From Pseudanabaena mucicola FACHB-723 (GTDB lineage: Bacteria > Cyanobacteriota > Cyanobacteriia > Pseudanabaenales > Pseudanabaenaceae), in contig NZ_JACJQB010000004.1 of assembly GCF_014696385.1 (NCBI RefSeq), forward strand, positions 1-64,000: a stretch of 64,000 nucleotides of DNA, written 5' to 3'. The position numbers were made by a program, and so were the translations under genes. Positions 31,809 through 36,097 of this stretch are shown here, in pieces (the first letter of the stretch is position 1; each line of letters begins with the position of its first letter). The notes under the pieces were generated by a model. It was not told the DNA's origin, did no database searches, and saw only the letters and a program-made list of their open reading frames with translations.

Positions 31809-33155
31809 TTAGAGCGCACCTGCGGCAGTGCGATCGAGAATGCCTTCCGATAGGTGGGTGGTGATATTGCAAGATTGCAAAATAGGTTTTCCCTTCGCTC
31901 CTTCGGGATAATCGATGACGCTTACACCGCCATTACCTTGCTTGAAGATCCAAAACTGTTCGGGTGTAAAGCCAAATAATAGACAAAGAATTGCCTTGTT
32001 GACTGCATCATGGGCAACAACAAGCGCAGTTTCACCCGCAGGGACAGATTCAACAATTTTTTGCCAAACGATCGCCACTCGATCCCATACTTCTTGGAGG
32101 TTTTCACCTTCAGGCATCTGCACGGTTTGGGGGTGTGATTGCCATAGGGCTAGTTGTCCTGCAAACTCAGCCTCGATTTCATGCTCAAATTTACCCTCCC
32201 ACAGACCATGGGAAATTTCCTTGAGTTCATCAAATAACTCAATCTGAATATGTGGATGTTTGCTTAAAATTTCTAAAGCTGTGTCTTTAGGGCGAAGCAT
32301 AGGGCTACTAAAAGCCTTGTCAATTTTGACCTGAGCAAGAAATTCGCTAGCACGTCGGGCTTGGGCATGACCATTGTTATTGAGGGGTACATCGATTTGA
32401 CCTTGAAAACGTTTTTGACGATTCCACTCGGTTTCACCATGACGGACTAGCAATAAACGTGGCCCATGGTGATTTTGCTTCGTAGGGGGCAATGGTGAGC
32501 CTGAAATATCTTCAAGATGGCTCGCAAGGTTGAGTGATTCAAGCTGCACGCCATCAGTGATATTTGCGCCTTGGAAATTCAGCACACTGATGGCACAGTT
32601 GACTTGCTGAATATTGTGGTACAGGCTAACGGGAATACCGATTGCAGAGCAAATTAAAGCGCGATTAATGCCGCTATGACCAACTAGCAGGATTGTTTTG
32701 CCTTGGTGTTTGGTCAAAATTTCTGCCCAAAAAGCTTTAGCCTGCTCAAATAAGTCAAGGACGGGATAGCGATCGCCTAGTTGAAACTGTTCAGGTTGAT
32801 TTTGCCAGAGATGATATTTTTCAGGGAATTGCTCCTTGACATCACGGGAAAGCATTGACTCCCATTCAGTGAGATCAATTTCTAATAAACTTTCGGTAGT
32901 ATTTAAAGTAGGTGGTTGAAGATTTTCTGCCAAAATAAGATTGGCGGTATGCTGAGCGCGAACTAGAGGACTAGCATAGGCGACATCAATGGTTAAATTT
33001 GCTAGGGCTTTGCCTGCTAACCTTGCTTGCTGCTTACCTTTATCGGTCAAGACAGACTGTAATTCTGGGCGATCGTAATTACCCCGTCCTTGAATTTTAT
33101 GCAGGATATTAAAATTACTTTCGCCGTGACGGACGATAACTACTCTCGTACTCAG
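31809..33155 (-). CDS. tandem histidine phosphatase (phosphoglycerate-mutase-like), apparent CTG start
   Basis: Two histidine-phosphatase domains in tandem. With the start at 33155 the protein is 448 aa: first motif RHGE at 9-12, second at 238-241 (LLVRHGETEWN). The frame shows clear coding similarity upstream of the first usual start codon (TTG at 33050): RVVIVRHGESNFN lies there. No ATG, GTG or TTG exists between 33050 and the upstream in-frame stop. A CTG at 33155 has GAGGG about 8 bases before it and gives the family N-terminus STRVVIVRHGES. Starting at 33050 would delete the first catalytic histidine. Substrate unknown. Confidence 0.82.
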   Translation of the reverse strand: MSTRVVIVRHGESNFNILHKIQGRGNYDRPELQSVLTDKGKQQARLAGKALANLTIDVAYASPLVRAQHTANLILAENLQPPTLNTTESLLEIDLTEWESMLSRDVKEQFPEKYHLWQNQPEQFQLGDRYPVLDLFEQAKAFWAEILTKHQGKTILLVGHSGINRALICSAIGIPVSLYHNIQQVNCAISVLNFQGANITDGVQLESLNLASHLEDISGSPLPPTKQNHHGPRLLLVRHGETEWNRQKRFQGQIDVPLNNNGHAQARRASEFLAQVKIDKAFSSPMLRPKDTALEILSKHPHIQIELFDELKEISHGLWEGKFEHEIEAEFAGQLALWQSHPQTVQMPEGENLQEVWDRVAIVWQKIVESVPAGETALVVAHDAVNKAILCLLFGFTPEQFWIFKQGNGGVSVIDYPEGAKGKPILQSCNITTHLSEGILDRTAAGAL

Positions 33156-33832
33156 AACCTTACCCTCAATTTGCTCTAGATTGATTTATATTGATACTGC
33201 TTTAAGATTAATCTCAATTAATGGCTAATCTTAAAACACTGTTAAGAAATTGTAGCGCTCAAAGGGTTTTGATCGCCAGAATTACCGAAGCTGCGCTACA
33301 ATAATAGGATAGGATTGATATAGCTGTTAGCTAAACGCATCTAACTGCTAGTCAAGCAATCAAGCTTACTAACCATAACTATAAACTTGAATCATCAAGT
33401 ACGCTGTTTTATTTGGAAGTTGAATGTTCCAGATAAATGGTGTAAGCACCTTTTAGATAGTCTCATAAACGCCAGTCTAAGAAATAAATCATATTTTTGT
33501 AACGAAATACCACCAATTTTCCACACAAAGCAATATGTCTGGTTGTCGTGATGTCAGAGCAGACACAGCAACTAAGTTATTAGCTCGGTACATAGCTAAG
33601 TAAACAGTTGGCGATAGGAGCATGTTGTGATCGAAATTTTTTCTTGTTTTCGTTATTTGTATGTTCTATTTGAAGCCCCTACTAAGACTTTTTATGTCTG
33701 CTGATAGATGGGTTGATAAAGGGTTTAGAAGATATTTTTTTTAATATTTTTTATATGAAGTTTAGAAAAAATGTTTTTCGGATATTTTCTTAGGCTGGCT
33801 CTCTTGAATCGAAGAAATTCCGAGGAAATTGA
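33156..33832 (+). promoter_or_regulatory. long rne upstream region with U-rich leader
   Basis: A 677-bp non-coding region upstream of RNase E. It includes an inverted repeat TTAGCT/AGCTAA near 33579-33599 and a strongly T-rich stretch at about 33725-33790. Cyanobacterial rne genes have long, U-rich 5' UTRs where RNase E cuts its own message to limit its level. This region fits that pattern, but the transcript start is unknown. A TTAGC-type repeat word occurs at 33315-33330. Confidence 0.55.
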
Positions 33833-36097
33833 ATGCCAAAGCAAATAATTATTGCCGAGCAGTATCGAATTGCTGCTGTTTTTAGCGAAGATCAAATTGA
33901 AGAAATTGTTGTTGCTGCGGGAACCCACCAAGTTGGTGACGTTTACTTGGGCGTTGTCGAAAATGTTTTAACCAGTATTGATGCTGCGTTTGTAAATATT
34001 GGCGATGGCGATCGCAATGGATTTATTCACATCACTGACCTTGGCCCCTTGAAGATGCGGCGCTCCTCTGGCAACATCAGTGATCTCGTTTCACCGCAGC
34101 AACGGGTGTTGGTACAGGTGATGAAGGAGCCAACGGGTAATAAAGGGCCACGCTTGACGGGGAATATCTCTCTCCCTGGGCGCTATGTGGTATTGCTACC
34201 CTTTGGGCGAGGCGTAAACCTATCGCGCAGAATTCGTAGTGAGGCAGAGCGCAATCGTCTTCGCGCCCTTGCGATTTTGATTAAGCCTGCGGGCATGGGT
34301 ATTTTGGTGCGGACTGAGGCCGATGGGATGTCTGAGGAGCAGATTATTGAGGATCTCGATAATTTGCAACGTCAGTGGGAAGGCATTCAGCAGGATGTGG
34401 CGACCACTCGCCAGCCAACTTTGCTTGATCGCGAGCGAGATTTTGTGCAGAGAGTATTGCGCGATCTGTACAGCACTGAAGTTAATCGTATTGTTACTGA
34501 TACTAGTGATGGGTTACGACGGATTAAGCAGCATTTATTGGGCTGGGGGGATGGCAAAATTCCTAGTGGTTTGATGCTCGATCATCACCGTGAGCGCACT
34601 TCGATTTTAGAATATTTTCGGGTGAATGCGGGTATCCGTGAGGCTTTAAAGCCAAGGGTAGACTTGCCCAGTGGTGGCTACATTATCATTGAGCCAACGG
34701 AAGCTTTGACTGTAATTGATGTTAACTCTGGCTCATTTACGCGATCGCAAACTTCCCGTGAGACTGTGCTATGGACTAACTGTGAGGCGGCGGTAGAAAT
34801 TGCCAGACAAATGCGCTTGCGGAATATCGCTGGTGTGATCGTGGTGGACTTCATTGATATGGATACCCGACTCGATCAATTGCATTTACTAGAACATTTC
34901 AATAAGGCTTTGCGATCGGATAAGTCGCGACCTCAAATTGCTCAGCTCACCGAATTGGGATTAGTCGAGCTGACCCGTAAGCGCCAAGGTCAAAGCATTT
35001 ATGAGTTGTTTGGTCGCCCTTGTGCTTCCTGTGGTGGTCTTGGTCATTTGATGCACCTCCCCGGTGAAGCCGTGGGGCAACCCGTTGATGCTACTTCTCG
35101 GACTTGGGAGGCGAAGCAATCGAATCAACTTGATTTTACTTCTGACTATGAAGATGGTGATTCAGACTTGGCGGGTGGTTTAGAACCAAATCTGGTCAAT
35201 CATCCTAGCTACCAAGAACGTAGTAATTTGCGTAGACGTGGCAAGCGTGCAGTCCTCAATAGTAAGGATGGTCGTGAATCGCGTATGCGCGAGGTGGACA
35301 AAACGCCACCCGTTGATATGCGATCGCGAATTGAGCCAAAGGTTGAGCCTTTCGTAGAGGCAAGATTTGAGCCTCGTATTGAACGGGATGCTTTTGTACC
35401 CAGAGTTGTGCCTTCAAAACTATCTTTGCCAAGTATTGCAGCTACACCTTCTAAGGCTGAACCTAGCCCAGAATTGAATGAGGTTGTTGCTGAGGTTGCT
35501 CCTGTGGTGGCGACAGAAAATACCCCTGAACGCCCAAATAAACGGGAAATTCGCACCAAAGTTGTAGAACCACCAGAATTAATTGTGGTGGAAATGACCG
35601 AAGAAGAGCAGGATGTGTACTCTCTGATTGGGGTTTCCCCGCTAGTATTAGTTGATCGCGAGATTAAAGATCCTCGTAATGTCATTGTTACGGTCGCCCT
35701 TCCGGGACAAGCTCCCAAGCCTGCCAATAATCTTGGTAATTTGCGATCTGCTGATTCTGCTAGAAGAACAATTGTGGAGGAACCAGTTGCCGATGAGCCA
35801 GAAGAAGTAGCTGAGGTGACTAATGTGGCATTACCAGAGGCGTTATCAGAACCAACTGTGGTTACCCCTGAAGTTGACGATAGTAATGATCCTGTTATCG
35901 CGCCTGTTAAGACCAATGGGACTGCTAGCGGTGTGATTTTGAGGGTTAATCGTACTCAGTCATTTGAGGCGACGGATGTTAATGAAAGTGAAGGTGGATT
36001 GCCTAAAGAGGATAGCGCGGACATAGCTAAGGAATTTGTTCCTATTCAATCTCCTGAGGCTTCTCGTCGTAAGCGTTCTTCGGCATCACAGTTATAA
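33833..36097 (+). CDS. rne: ribonuclease E (cyanobacterial RNase E/G)
   Basis: A 754-aa endoribonuclease. The S1 RNA-binding region (about 35-120) is followed by the catalytic core with magnesium-binding D296 (VIDVNSG) and D339 (VVDFIDMD), and the zinc-link CASC (C397, C400). Residues about 420-740 are a low-complexity, Glu/Val/Pro-rich disordered scaffold. The C-terminus ends RRKRSSASQL, matching the Arg-rich nonapeptide that recruits polynucleotide phosphorylase in cyanobacteria. ATG at 33833 with GAGGA upstream. Confidence 0.95.
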   Translation: MPKQIIIAEQYRIAAVFSEDQIEEIVVAAGTHQVGDVYLGVVENVLTSIDAAFVNIGDGDRNGFIHITDLGPLKMRRSSGNISDLVSPQQRVLVQVMKEPTGNKGPRLTGNISLPGRYVVLLPFGRGVNLSRRIRSEAERNRLRALAILIKPAGMGILVRTEADGMSEEQIIEDLDNLQRQWEGIQQDVATTRQPTLLDRERDFVQRVLRDLYSTEVNRIVTDTSDGLRRIKQHLLGWGDGKIPSGLMLDHHRERTSILEYFRVNAGIREALKPRVDLPSGGYIIIEPTEALTVIDVNSGSFTRSQTSRETVLWTNCEAAVEIARQMRLRNIAGVIVVDFIDMDTRLDQLHLLEHFNKALRSDKSRPQIAQLTELGLVELTRKRQGQSIYELFGRPCASCGGLGHLMHLPGEAVGQPVDATSRTWEAKQSNQLDFTSDYEDGDSDLAGGLEPNLVNHPSYQERSNLRRRGKRAVLNSKDGRESRMREVDKTPPVDMRSRIEPKVEPFVEARFEPRIERDAFVPRVVPSKLSLPSIAATPSKAEPSPELNEVVAEVAPVVATENTPERPNKREIRTKVVEPPELIVVEMTEEEQDVYSLIGVSPLVLVDREIKDPRNVIVTVALPGQAPKPANNLGNLRSADSARRTIVEEPVADEPEEVAEVTNVALPEALSEPTVVTPEVDDSNDPVIAPVKTNGTASGVILRVNRTQSFEATDVNESEGGLPKEDSADIAKEFVPIQSPEASRRKRSSASQL

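Follow-up and report, generated by a model that had tools for sequence, protein, structure and literature searches.

CTG as the probable start codon of a tandem histidine phosphatase gene in Pseudanabaena and other cyanobacteria

Introduction

Where does translation begin when the first catalytic motif of an enzyme is encoded upstream of every usual start codon in its reading frame? This question is raised by a gene for a tandem histidine phosphatase of Pseudanabaena mucicola FACHB-723, which lies in the stretch of 64,000 nucleotides analysed here (contig NZ_JACJQB010000004.1, positions 1 to 64,000 of the forward strand; hereafter the window) and for which an initial annotation had proposed a CTG at 33155 as start codon. 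According to the accessible parts of the respective papers, CUG starts are very rare in bacteria (PMC11497404, PMC9845219, PMC5622118) and CUG initiation complexes are less stable (PMC11497404). There, 20 annotated ORFs with CUG in 69 genomes are cited (PMC9845219), and two out of 61,358 reconstructed AUG starts are given as switched to CUG (PMC5622118). CTG is listed among the “typical” initiation codons in the accessible part of PMC8557916, where ATA and ATT starts are reported in Nostoc 7120. No report of a CTG or CUG start in this enzyme, be it in cyanobacteria or in bacteria, was found in the titles and abstract openings of the open-access literature, and the accessible part of PMC13339759 does not mention the phosphatase gene.

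The locus and its reading frame

The phosphatase frame on the minus strand is open from 33185 to the stop codon at 31811-31809 and comprises 458 codons (Table 1). Under translation table 11 its first start codon is the TTG at 33050, which would yield a protein of 413 amino acids. As the initial annotation had claimed, the motif VRHGES, residues 8-13 when counted from CTG, lies 5' of every ATG, GTG or TTG in the frame, CTG is preceded by GAGGG, and a stop codon shortly upstream closes the frame. It was equally right that a start at TTG 33050 would cost domain 1 its catalytic histidine, as His10 is encoded before this TTG. None of the ten codons between the stop and CTG (ATC AAT CTA GAG CAA ATT GAG GGT AAG GTT) is ATG, GTG or TTG. 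The window contains 56 frames that span at least 150 codons from stop to stop, and of these the phosphatase frame loses the highest number of codons before its first usual start, namely 45, followed by 36 in the runner-up.

Table 1. Coordinates of the phosphatase gene and its features in the window
Feature	Position	Strand	Basis
Tandem histidine phosphatase (branch 1) CDS, CTG to stop, 448 aa	31809..33155	-	Frame and PF00300
CTG initiation codon (very probable)	33153..33155	-	Conservation in genus and class orthologues
Shine-Dalgarno sequence GAGGG, 7 nt before CTG	33163..33167	-	GAGG invariant in genus, 26/26
In-frame stop TAA, 10 codons before CTG	33186..33188	-	Closes the frame
TTG codon 36, first usual start, judged an internal leucine	33048..33050	-	Codon drifts in genus
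Histidine phosphatase domain 1, about residues 5-196; nucleophile His10 at 33128-33126	32568..33143	-	NCBIfam NF038349, best stretch
Histidine phosphatase domain 2, residues 234-420	31896..32456	-	Pfam PF00300, best stretch

Upstream of the phosphatase gene, a divergent RNase E/G-type gene is located at 33833 on the plus strand, and no ORF of at least 150 amino acids on the strand of the phosphatase ends between the two. A promoter scan of the region upstream of the phosphatase gave two matches, with 2.6 expected. Judged by their coordinates, the genes of the phosphatase and of the RNase E-like protein lie side by side in divergent orientation, both in the window (33155-33833) and in the genomes G022, G003, G030, G031, and G033; in G028, the seventh family member examined, they are found on separate contigs. 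In the window as well as in G022 and G003, the phosphatase gene is followed by ribH. A terminator-like hairpin with a T-rich tail lies at 33136-33121 on the minus strand within codons 7-12 (one found, 0.3 expected), and is perhaps a chance product of the codons for RHGE.

Conservation of CTG in the genus and the family

An orthologue is present in all 26 genomes of the genus, the others being 84-91% identical to the window protein. CTG and the preceding GAGG are invariant in all of them, and the leader further 5' is rich in insertions and deletions. For the codon statistics of the genus 25 of the 26 rows were used, as G024 is partial. In the rest of the gene CTG makes up only 8% of 1,320 leucine codons, and out of 42 columns that contain leucine throughout, codon 1 is the only one with a single codon in all 25 full-length rows. 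The conservation of CTG is therefore more than chance. Four-fold sites in these rows have a median difference of 0.53. Among the other family members with a complete 5' end, the homologous codon is CTG in nine of 11 and GTG in the remaining two, which brings the family including the genus to 35 of 37 with CTG. The two GTG codons independently support this column as a start. Comparing the start regions of orthologues, which had been named as a check in the initial annotation, thus speaks for CTG.

The same data bear on two alternatives that the initial annotation had named as possible refutations. A sequencing or assembly error could mask an ATG or GTG, as only a single base, C for A or G, makes the difference. 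However, CTG and GAGG have the same placement in all 26 genus genomes, and CTG recurs in records with species names, among them Pseudanabaena sp. FACHB-1998 and Acaryochloris, a set that overlaps with the other genomes examined. We rejected an error, the probability of which is negligible, because the relatives share CTG. Alternatively, translation could begin at TTG 33050 or another internal start, with the first 35 codons being an untranslated leader, and this TTG is indeed the first start that a table-11 gene finder accepts. Yet codon 36 varies in the genus (TTG in 14, TTA in six, and CTG in five of 25), whereas the protein sequence ahead of it is conserved despite variation at many synonymous sites in codons 13-35, and both R9 and H10, the latter being the nucleophile that would be deleted, do not vary across 22 selected diverse proteins. 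With its codon drifting to TTA and CTG in the genus, the start at TTG 33050 was rejected as well, and we regard an internal start of any kind as hardly credible.

The start codon across the class

For the class-wide survey 290 genomes were drawn, of which 285 have the protein and 270 were examined; the 15 omitted ones comprise 14 of family f2 and one of f25. Five further genomes of the window's own family were added, resulting in a total of 275, and G026 was left out as its match starts at residue 82 at a contig end. Four of the 275 loci have no readable first RHG, leaving 271, and in two of these the frame is too short for a codon at position -8, leaving 269. The codon eight positions before the first RHG in these 269 orthologues is CTG in 126, TTG in 45, ATG in 30, GTG in 28, and another codon in 40. 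Hence, the share of NTG at the start codon is 85% (229/269; CTG 47%), compared to 1% for the preceding codon and 8% for the following one. Leucine codons in the start column are CTG (126), TTG (45), TTA (2), and CTC (1). Since CTG and TTG thereby account for 171 of 174, but for 47% of those in the remainder of the gene, the column has the profile of a start codon rather than of a leucine codon. The start codon is thus found conserved at the homologous position in the genus, the family and the class, and the CTG start reaches class-wide, beyond what the initial annotation could see. When a single start is assigned to each locus, CTG is the start in 125 loci from 21 of 39 families; the difference from 126 is due to one locus with CTG at -8 that was counted under a usual start at -7.

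A set of 80 loci with species names overlaps with the class sample and was never summed with it. Here, the start is CTG in 20, TTG in 18, GTG in 14, and ATG in five loci, or lies one codon later as ATG in 14 and GTG in five; two have another codon and two are unreadable. Of the 80 loci, two yielded no N-terminus and two no clear start. CTG starts occur in Pseudanabaena sp. FACHB-1998, Leptolyngbya sp. FACHB-8, Acaryochloris, Nodosilinea, Laspinema, Elainella, and Lyngbya confervoides. TTG takes this position in Microcystis, Gloeocapsa, Hyella, and also Leptolyngbya cf. ectocarpi, Prochlorococcus and Cyanobium mostly have GTG, and in Nostoc, Calothrix, and Tolypothrix the start mostly lies one codon later, as ATG or GTG.

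As controls the RNase E-like gene and RibH were inspected in 30 genomes picked from the CTG list, two genes being a small control. At the position of residue 1 the alignment has ATG in 29 of 30 genomes for the RNase E-like gene, the remaining row being unclear, and in all 29 genomes with a match for RibH (one gave none), which argues against a free use of CTG in these genomes. At locus L385 (G045), no ATG, GTG or TTG occurs in the RNase E-like gene from the in-frame stop up to the codon corresponding to residue 12 of the window protein, so that either its start differs or its frame is disturbed.

The class data also allow weighing initiation further upstream, at a usual or near-cognate codon such as the ATT at 33170 in the window, with CTG being an internal leucine codon. 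ATT initiates infC, and an in-frame ATG, GTG or TTG is present upstream in 44 of the 125 CTG loci. Moreover, the NTG share reaches 14% at codon -13, some of the upstream starts directly preceding the Shine-Dalgarno sequence. On the other hand, no ATG, GTG or TTG occurs between the stop and CTG in the other 81 loci, and the NTG share is only 1% at -9, 6% at -10, 2% at -11, and 1% at -12, where the common codons (GAG, GAC/GAT/GGT, AGA/AAA) spell the Shine-Dalgarno stretch. In genome G018 merely AAC GAG GGT AAA GTT separate the stop from CTG, and the near-exclusive use of CTG and TTG among the leucine codons of the start column speaks against an internal leucine, too. An upstream start may be used in the 44 loci that have one; as an explanation of the window gene we consider upstream initiation very improbable.

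A small frame that overlaps with the CTG is found at 33168-33151 of the window and in the genus, being of the type NTG AGG GTA AGG TTC TGA. It could be an upstream ORF of five codons in Pseudanabaena, the TGA of which overlaps CTG (C-TGA) and which feeds ribosomes to the phosphatase by reinitiation. The small frame, with an ATG, TTG or GTG start and the overlapping TGA, exists in 19 of the 26 genus rows, but the other seven lack its start or its stop, and GCT, with 46 of 271 the commonest codon 2 class-wide, yields no overlapping TGA. There is little to expect from this explanation, either.

We therefore conclude with high confidence that translation of the window phosphatase starts at CTG 33155 and that this is a genuine CUG initiation codon. 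It is known from Escherichia coli that the initiator tRNA reads CUG as formyl-methionine. In Pseudanabaena, a strong Shine-Dalgarno sequence at a fixed distance would put CUG into the ribosomal P site and make up for the weak codon, and the reading of CUG by the initiator tRNA as formyl-methionine, presumably at useful rates, would lead to a protein beginning with M-STRVVIVRHGES... in which both catalytic domains are whole.

Shine-Dalgarno sequence and RNA of the start region

A Shine-Dalgarno sequence was regarded as strong when AGGA, GGAG or GAGG occurs within -20 to -5, following the definition given in the accessible part of PMC5622118. By this measure it is strong in 122 of 125 loci with CTG, 39 of 45 with TTG, 12 of 28 with GTG, and seven of 30 with ATG at the same codon. 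In contrast to a simple rule, it is also strong in most loci with a start one codon later (ATG 14/19, GTG 3/3); where an ATG start lies one to three codons further upstream, none of the 11 loci has one. The last GAGG is spaced 8 nt from CTG in 103 of 126 CTG loci, and many relatives have GGAGGA where the window has GAGGG. When relatedness is counted, only about four independent pairs differ, nearly all of them in the expected direction, which is not significant (median p 0.125). For GUG and UUG, a strong Shine-Dalgarno sequence that offsets a weak codon is described in the accessible part of PMC5622118. The pattern in the phosphatase gene would fit such a compensation, for which, however, the independent pairs are too few.

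Neither a known nor a conserved RNA structure came to light at the start. An Rfam search of 33000-33900 with E up to 1 gave no match, and folding 36 selected CTG start regions to a consensus resulted in three weak pairs (energy -0.35, no covariation), formed by AGG of the Shine-Dalgarno sequence with YCU at the start. In 121 of 125 CTG loci, a C or T immediately precedes CTG, so that AGG could pair with YCU in these loci, although with negligible energy and no covariation. With respect to RNA accessibility, CTG loci do not stand out as open (the median unpaired value is 0.46, compared to 0.43 for TTG, 0.42 for GTG, and 0.52 for ATG). In the genus, codons 2-12 are the most synonymously conserved stretch of 11 codons (0.81 vs 0.57), a level that is reached in none of 425 other windows of this size.

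History of the start codon and what may keep it

A FastTree of 270 proteins was calculated with the first 10 residues omitted and with family f14, which we take to be Gloeobacter-like, placed as outgroup by us. Between CTG and the other starts 20 changes are required on this tree, compared to at least 72 in 200 shuffles of the labels, and the start type is therefore inherited, which has no bearing on its use. By parsimony, the node below the outgroup and the majority of the deep nodes are reconstructed as CTG; for some deep nodes the result is CTG/TTG, and support is low for several of them in this one protein tree. Thus, CTG is likely to be ancestral in cyanobacteria. The old CTG would then have been kept in about half of the sampled loci. 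Elsewhere TTG, GTG or ATG would have taken its place, or the start would have moved one codon on, to ATG or GTG.

Why CTG has been kept can be explained in two ways. The first one is pure history, CTG being a start that is good enough together with a strong Shine-Dalgarno sequence and that is retained without any tuning or regulation. The start codon type indeed tracks the lineage, CTG, TTG, GTG, and ATG interchange, so that none of them is indispensable, and the fold and Rfam results give no hint of a conserved RNA element near the start. Two observations oppose this: in the genus CTG has never turned into TTG, one transition away, though leucine codons elsewhere exchange freely, and codons 2-12 show the exceptional synonymous conservation described above. 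Both together suggest that selection may act on the initiation region in the genus. We give pure history nearly an even chance and regard it as a serious rival to the second explanation, a tuning role. Selection would then retain CTG since a low or tunable enzyme level is thereby set; such a role for CTG is put forward tentatively, with a chance somewhat below even. More far-reaching, and in our opinion rather unlikely, is the idea that the CUG start, already present in the ancestor shared by most or all of today's cyanobacteria, has been held by selection in this single enzyme of serine metabolism. Together, the strong Shine-Dalgarno sequence and the weak codon would form a translational brake that senses the state of the initiation machinery (IF3, charging and formylation of the initiator tRNA, one-carbon supply) and ties serine and one-carbon metabolism to translation.

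Comparison with other non-AUG starts and consequences for annotation

A conserved non-AUG start is a kind of start already known in bacteria, as AUU of infC is one. Another is GUG of psbC, according to the accessible part of PMC9845219. The phosphatase gene resembles both in having a weak start codon that is conserved in one gene across many genera. It differs from them in using CUG, which is nearly absent among bacterial starts in the accessible parts of the work cited above, and in encoding a metabolic enzyme. As far as our searches in titles and abstract openings of the open-access literature show, CUG as the commonest start of one gene across a bacterial class is new, and a gene of this sort would lend itself to studying how bacteria make use of CUG and why this codon persists. 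Gene finding that is limited to ATG, GTG, and TTG would affect annotation, cloning, and assays of the phosphatase. In the 125 CTG loci, a finder of this kind would have an upstream start in 44, a start up to residue 10 in 20, and only a start beyond the first catalytic histidine in 61.

The protein and its predicted activity

The window protein matches the histidine phosphatase superfamily, branch 1 (PF00300), in two stretches with 338.5 bits, compared to a gathering cut-off of 21.7. Both domains have the RHG motif as well as the catalytic arginine, glutamate, and histidine, and R9, H10, R66, E92, and H160 of the first domain and R238, H239, R288, E313, and H382 of the second one, to which we ascribe the catalytic roles, are invariant in the 22 chosen diverse proteins. 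The best NCBIfam match is PspA (NF045917), which misses its cut-off with 251.4 vs 350 bits, whereas for alpha-ribazole phosphatase (TIGR03162) the score is 235.4 vs a cut-off of 162.9 bits, this being a whole-protein score over two stretches, so that a single domain may fall short. Automatic names for tandem histidine phosphatases may mislead, the whole-protein score exceeding the TIGR03162 cut-off and the PspA equivalog being missed.

Slr1124 of Synechocystis is presumably a tandem-domain enzyme of the same family and the orthologue of the window protein. In the accessible parts of PMC12077085 and PMC11257934 Slr1124, annotated as phosphoglycerate mutase, is identified or annotated as phosphoserine phosphatase, the activity that is also predicted for the window protein, and its start codon is not mentioned there. 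Based on the PspA model, the literature on Slr1124, and the best match among solved structures, which is phosphoserine phosphatase 1 (4ij5, to domain 2, E 5.5e-30), the window protein is likely to have phosphoserine phosphatase activity. It differs from phosphoserine phosphatase 1 (4ij5/4ij6) in its architecture, the 211-residue chain of the latter being matched as one domain, whereas the window protein has two.
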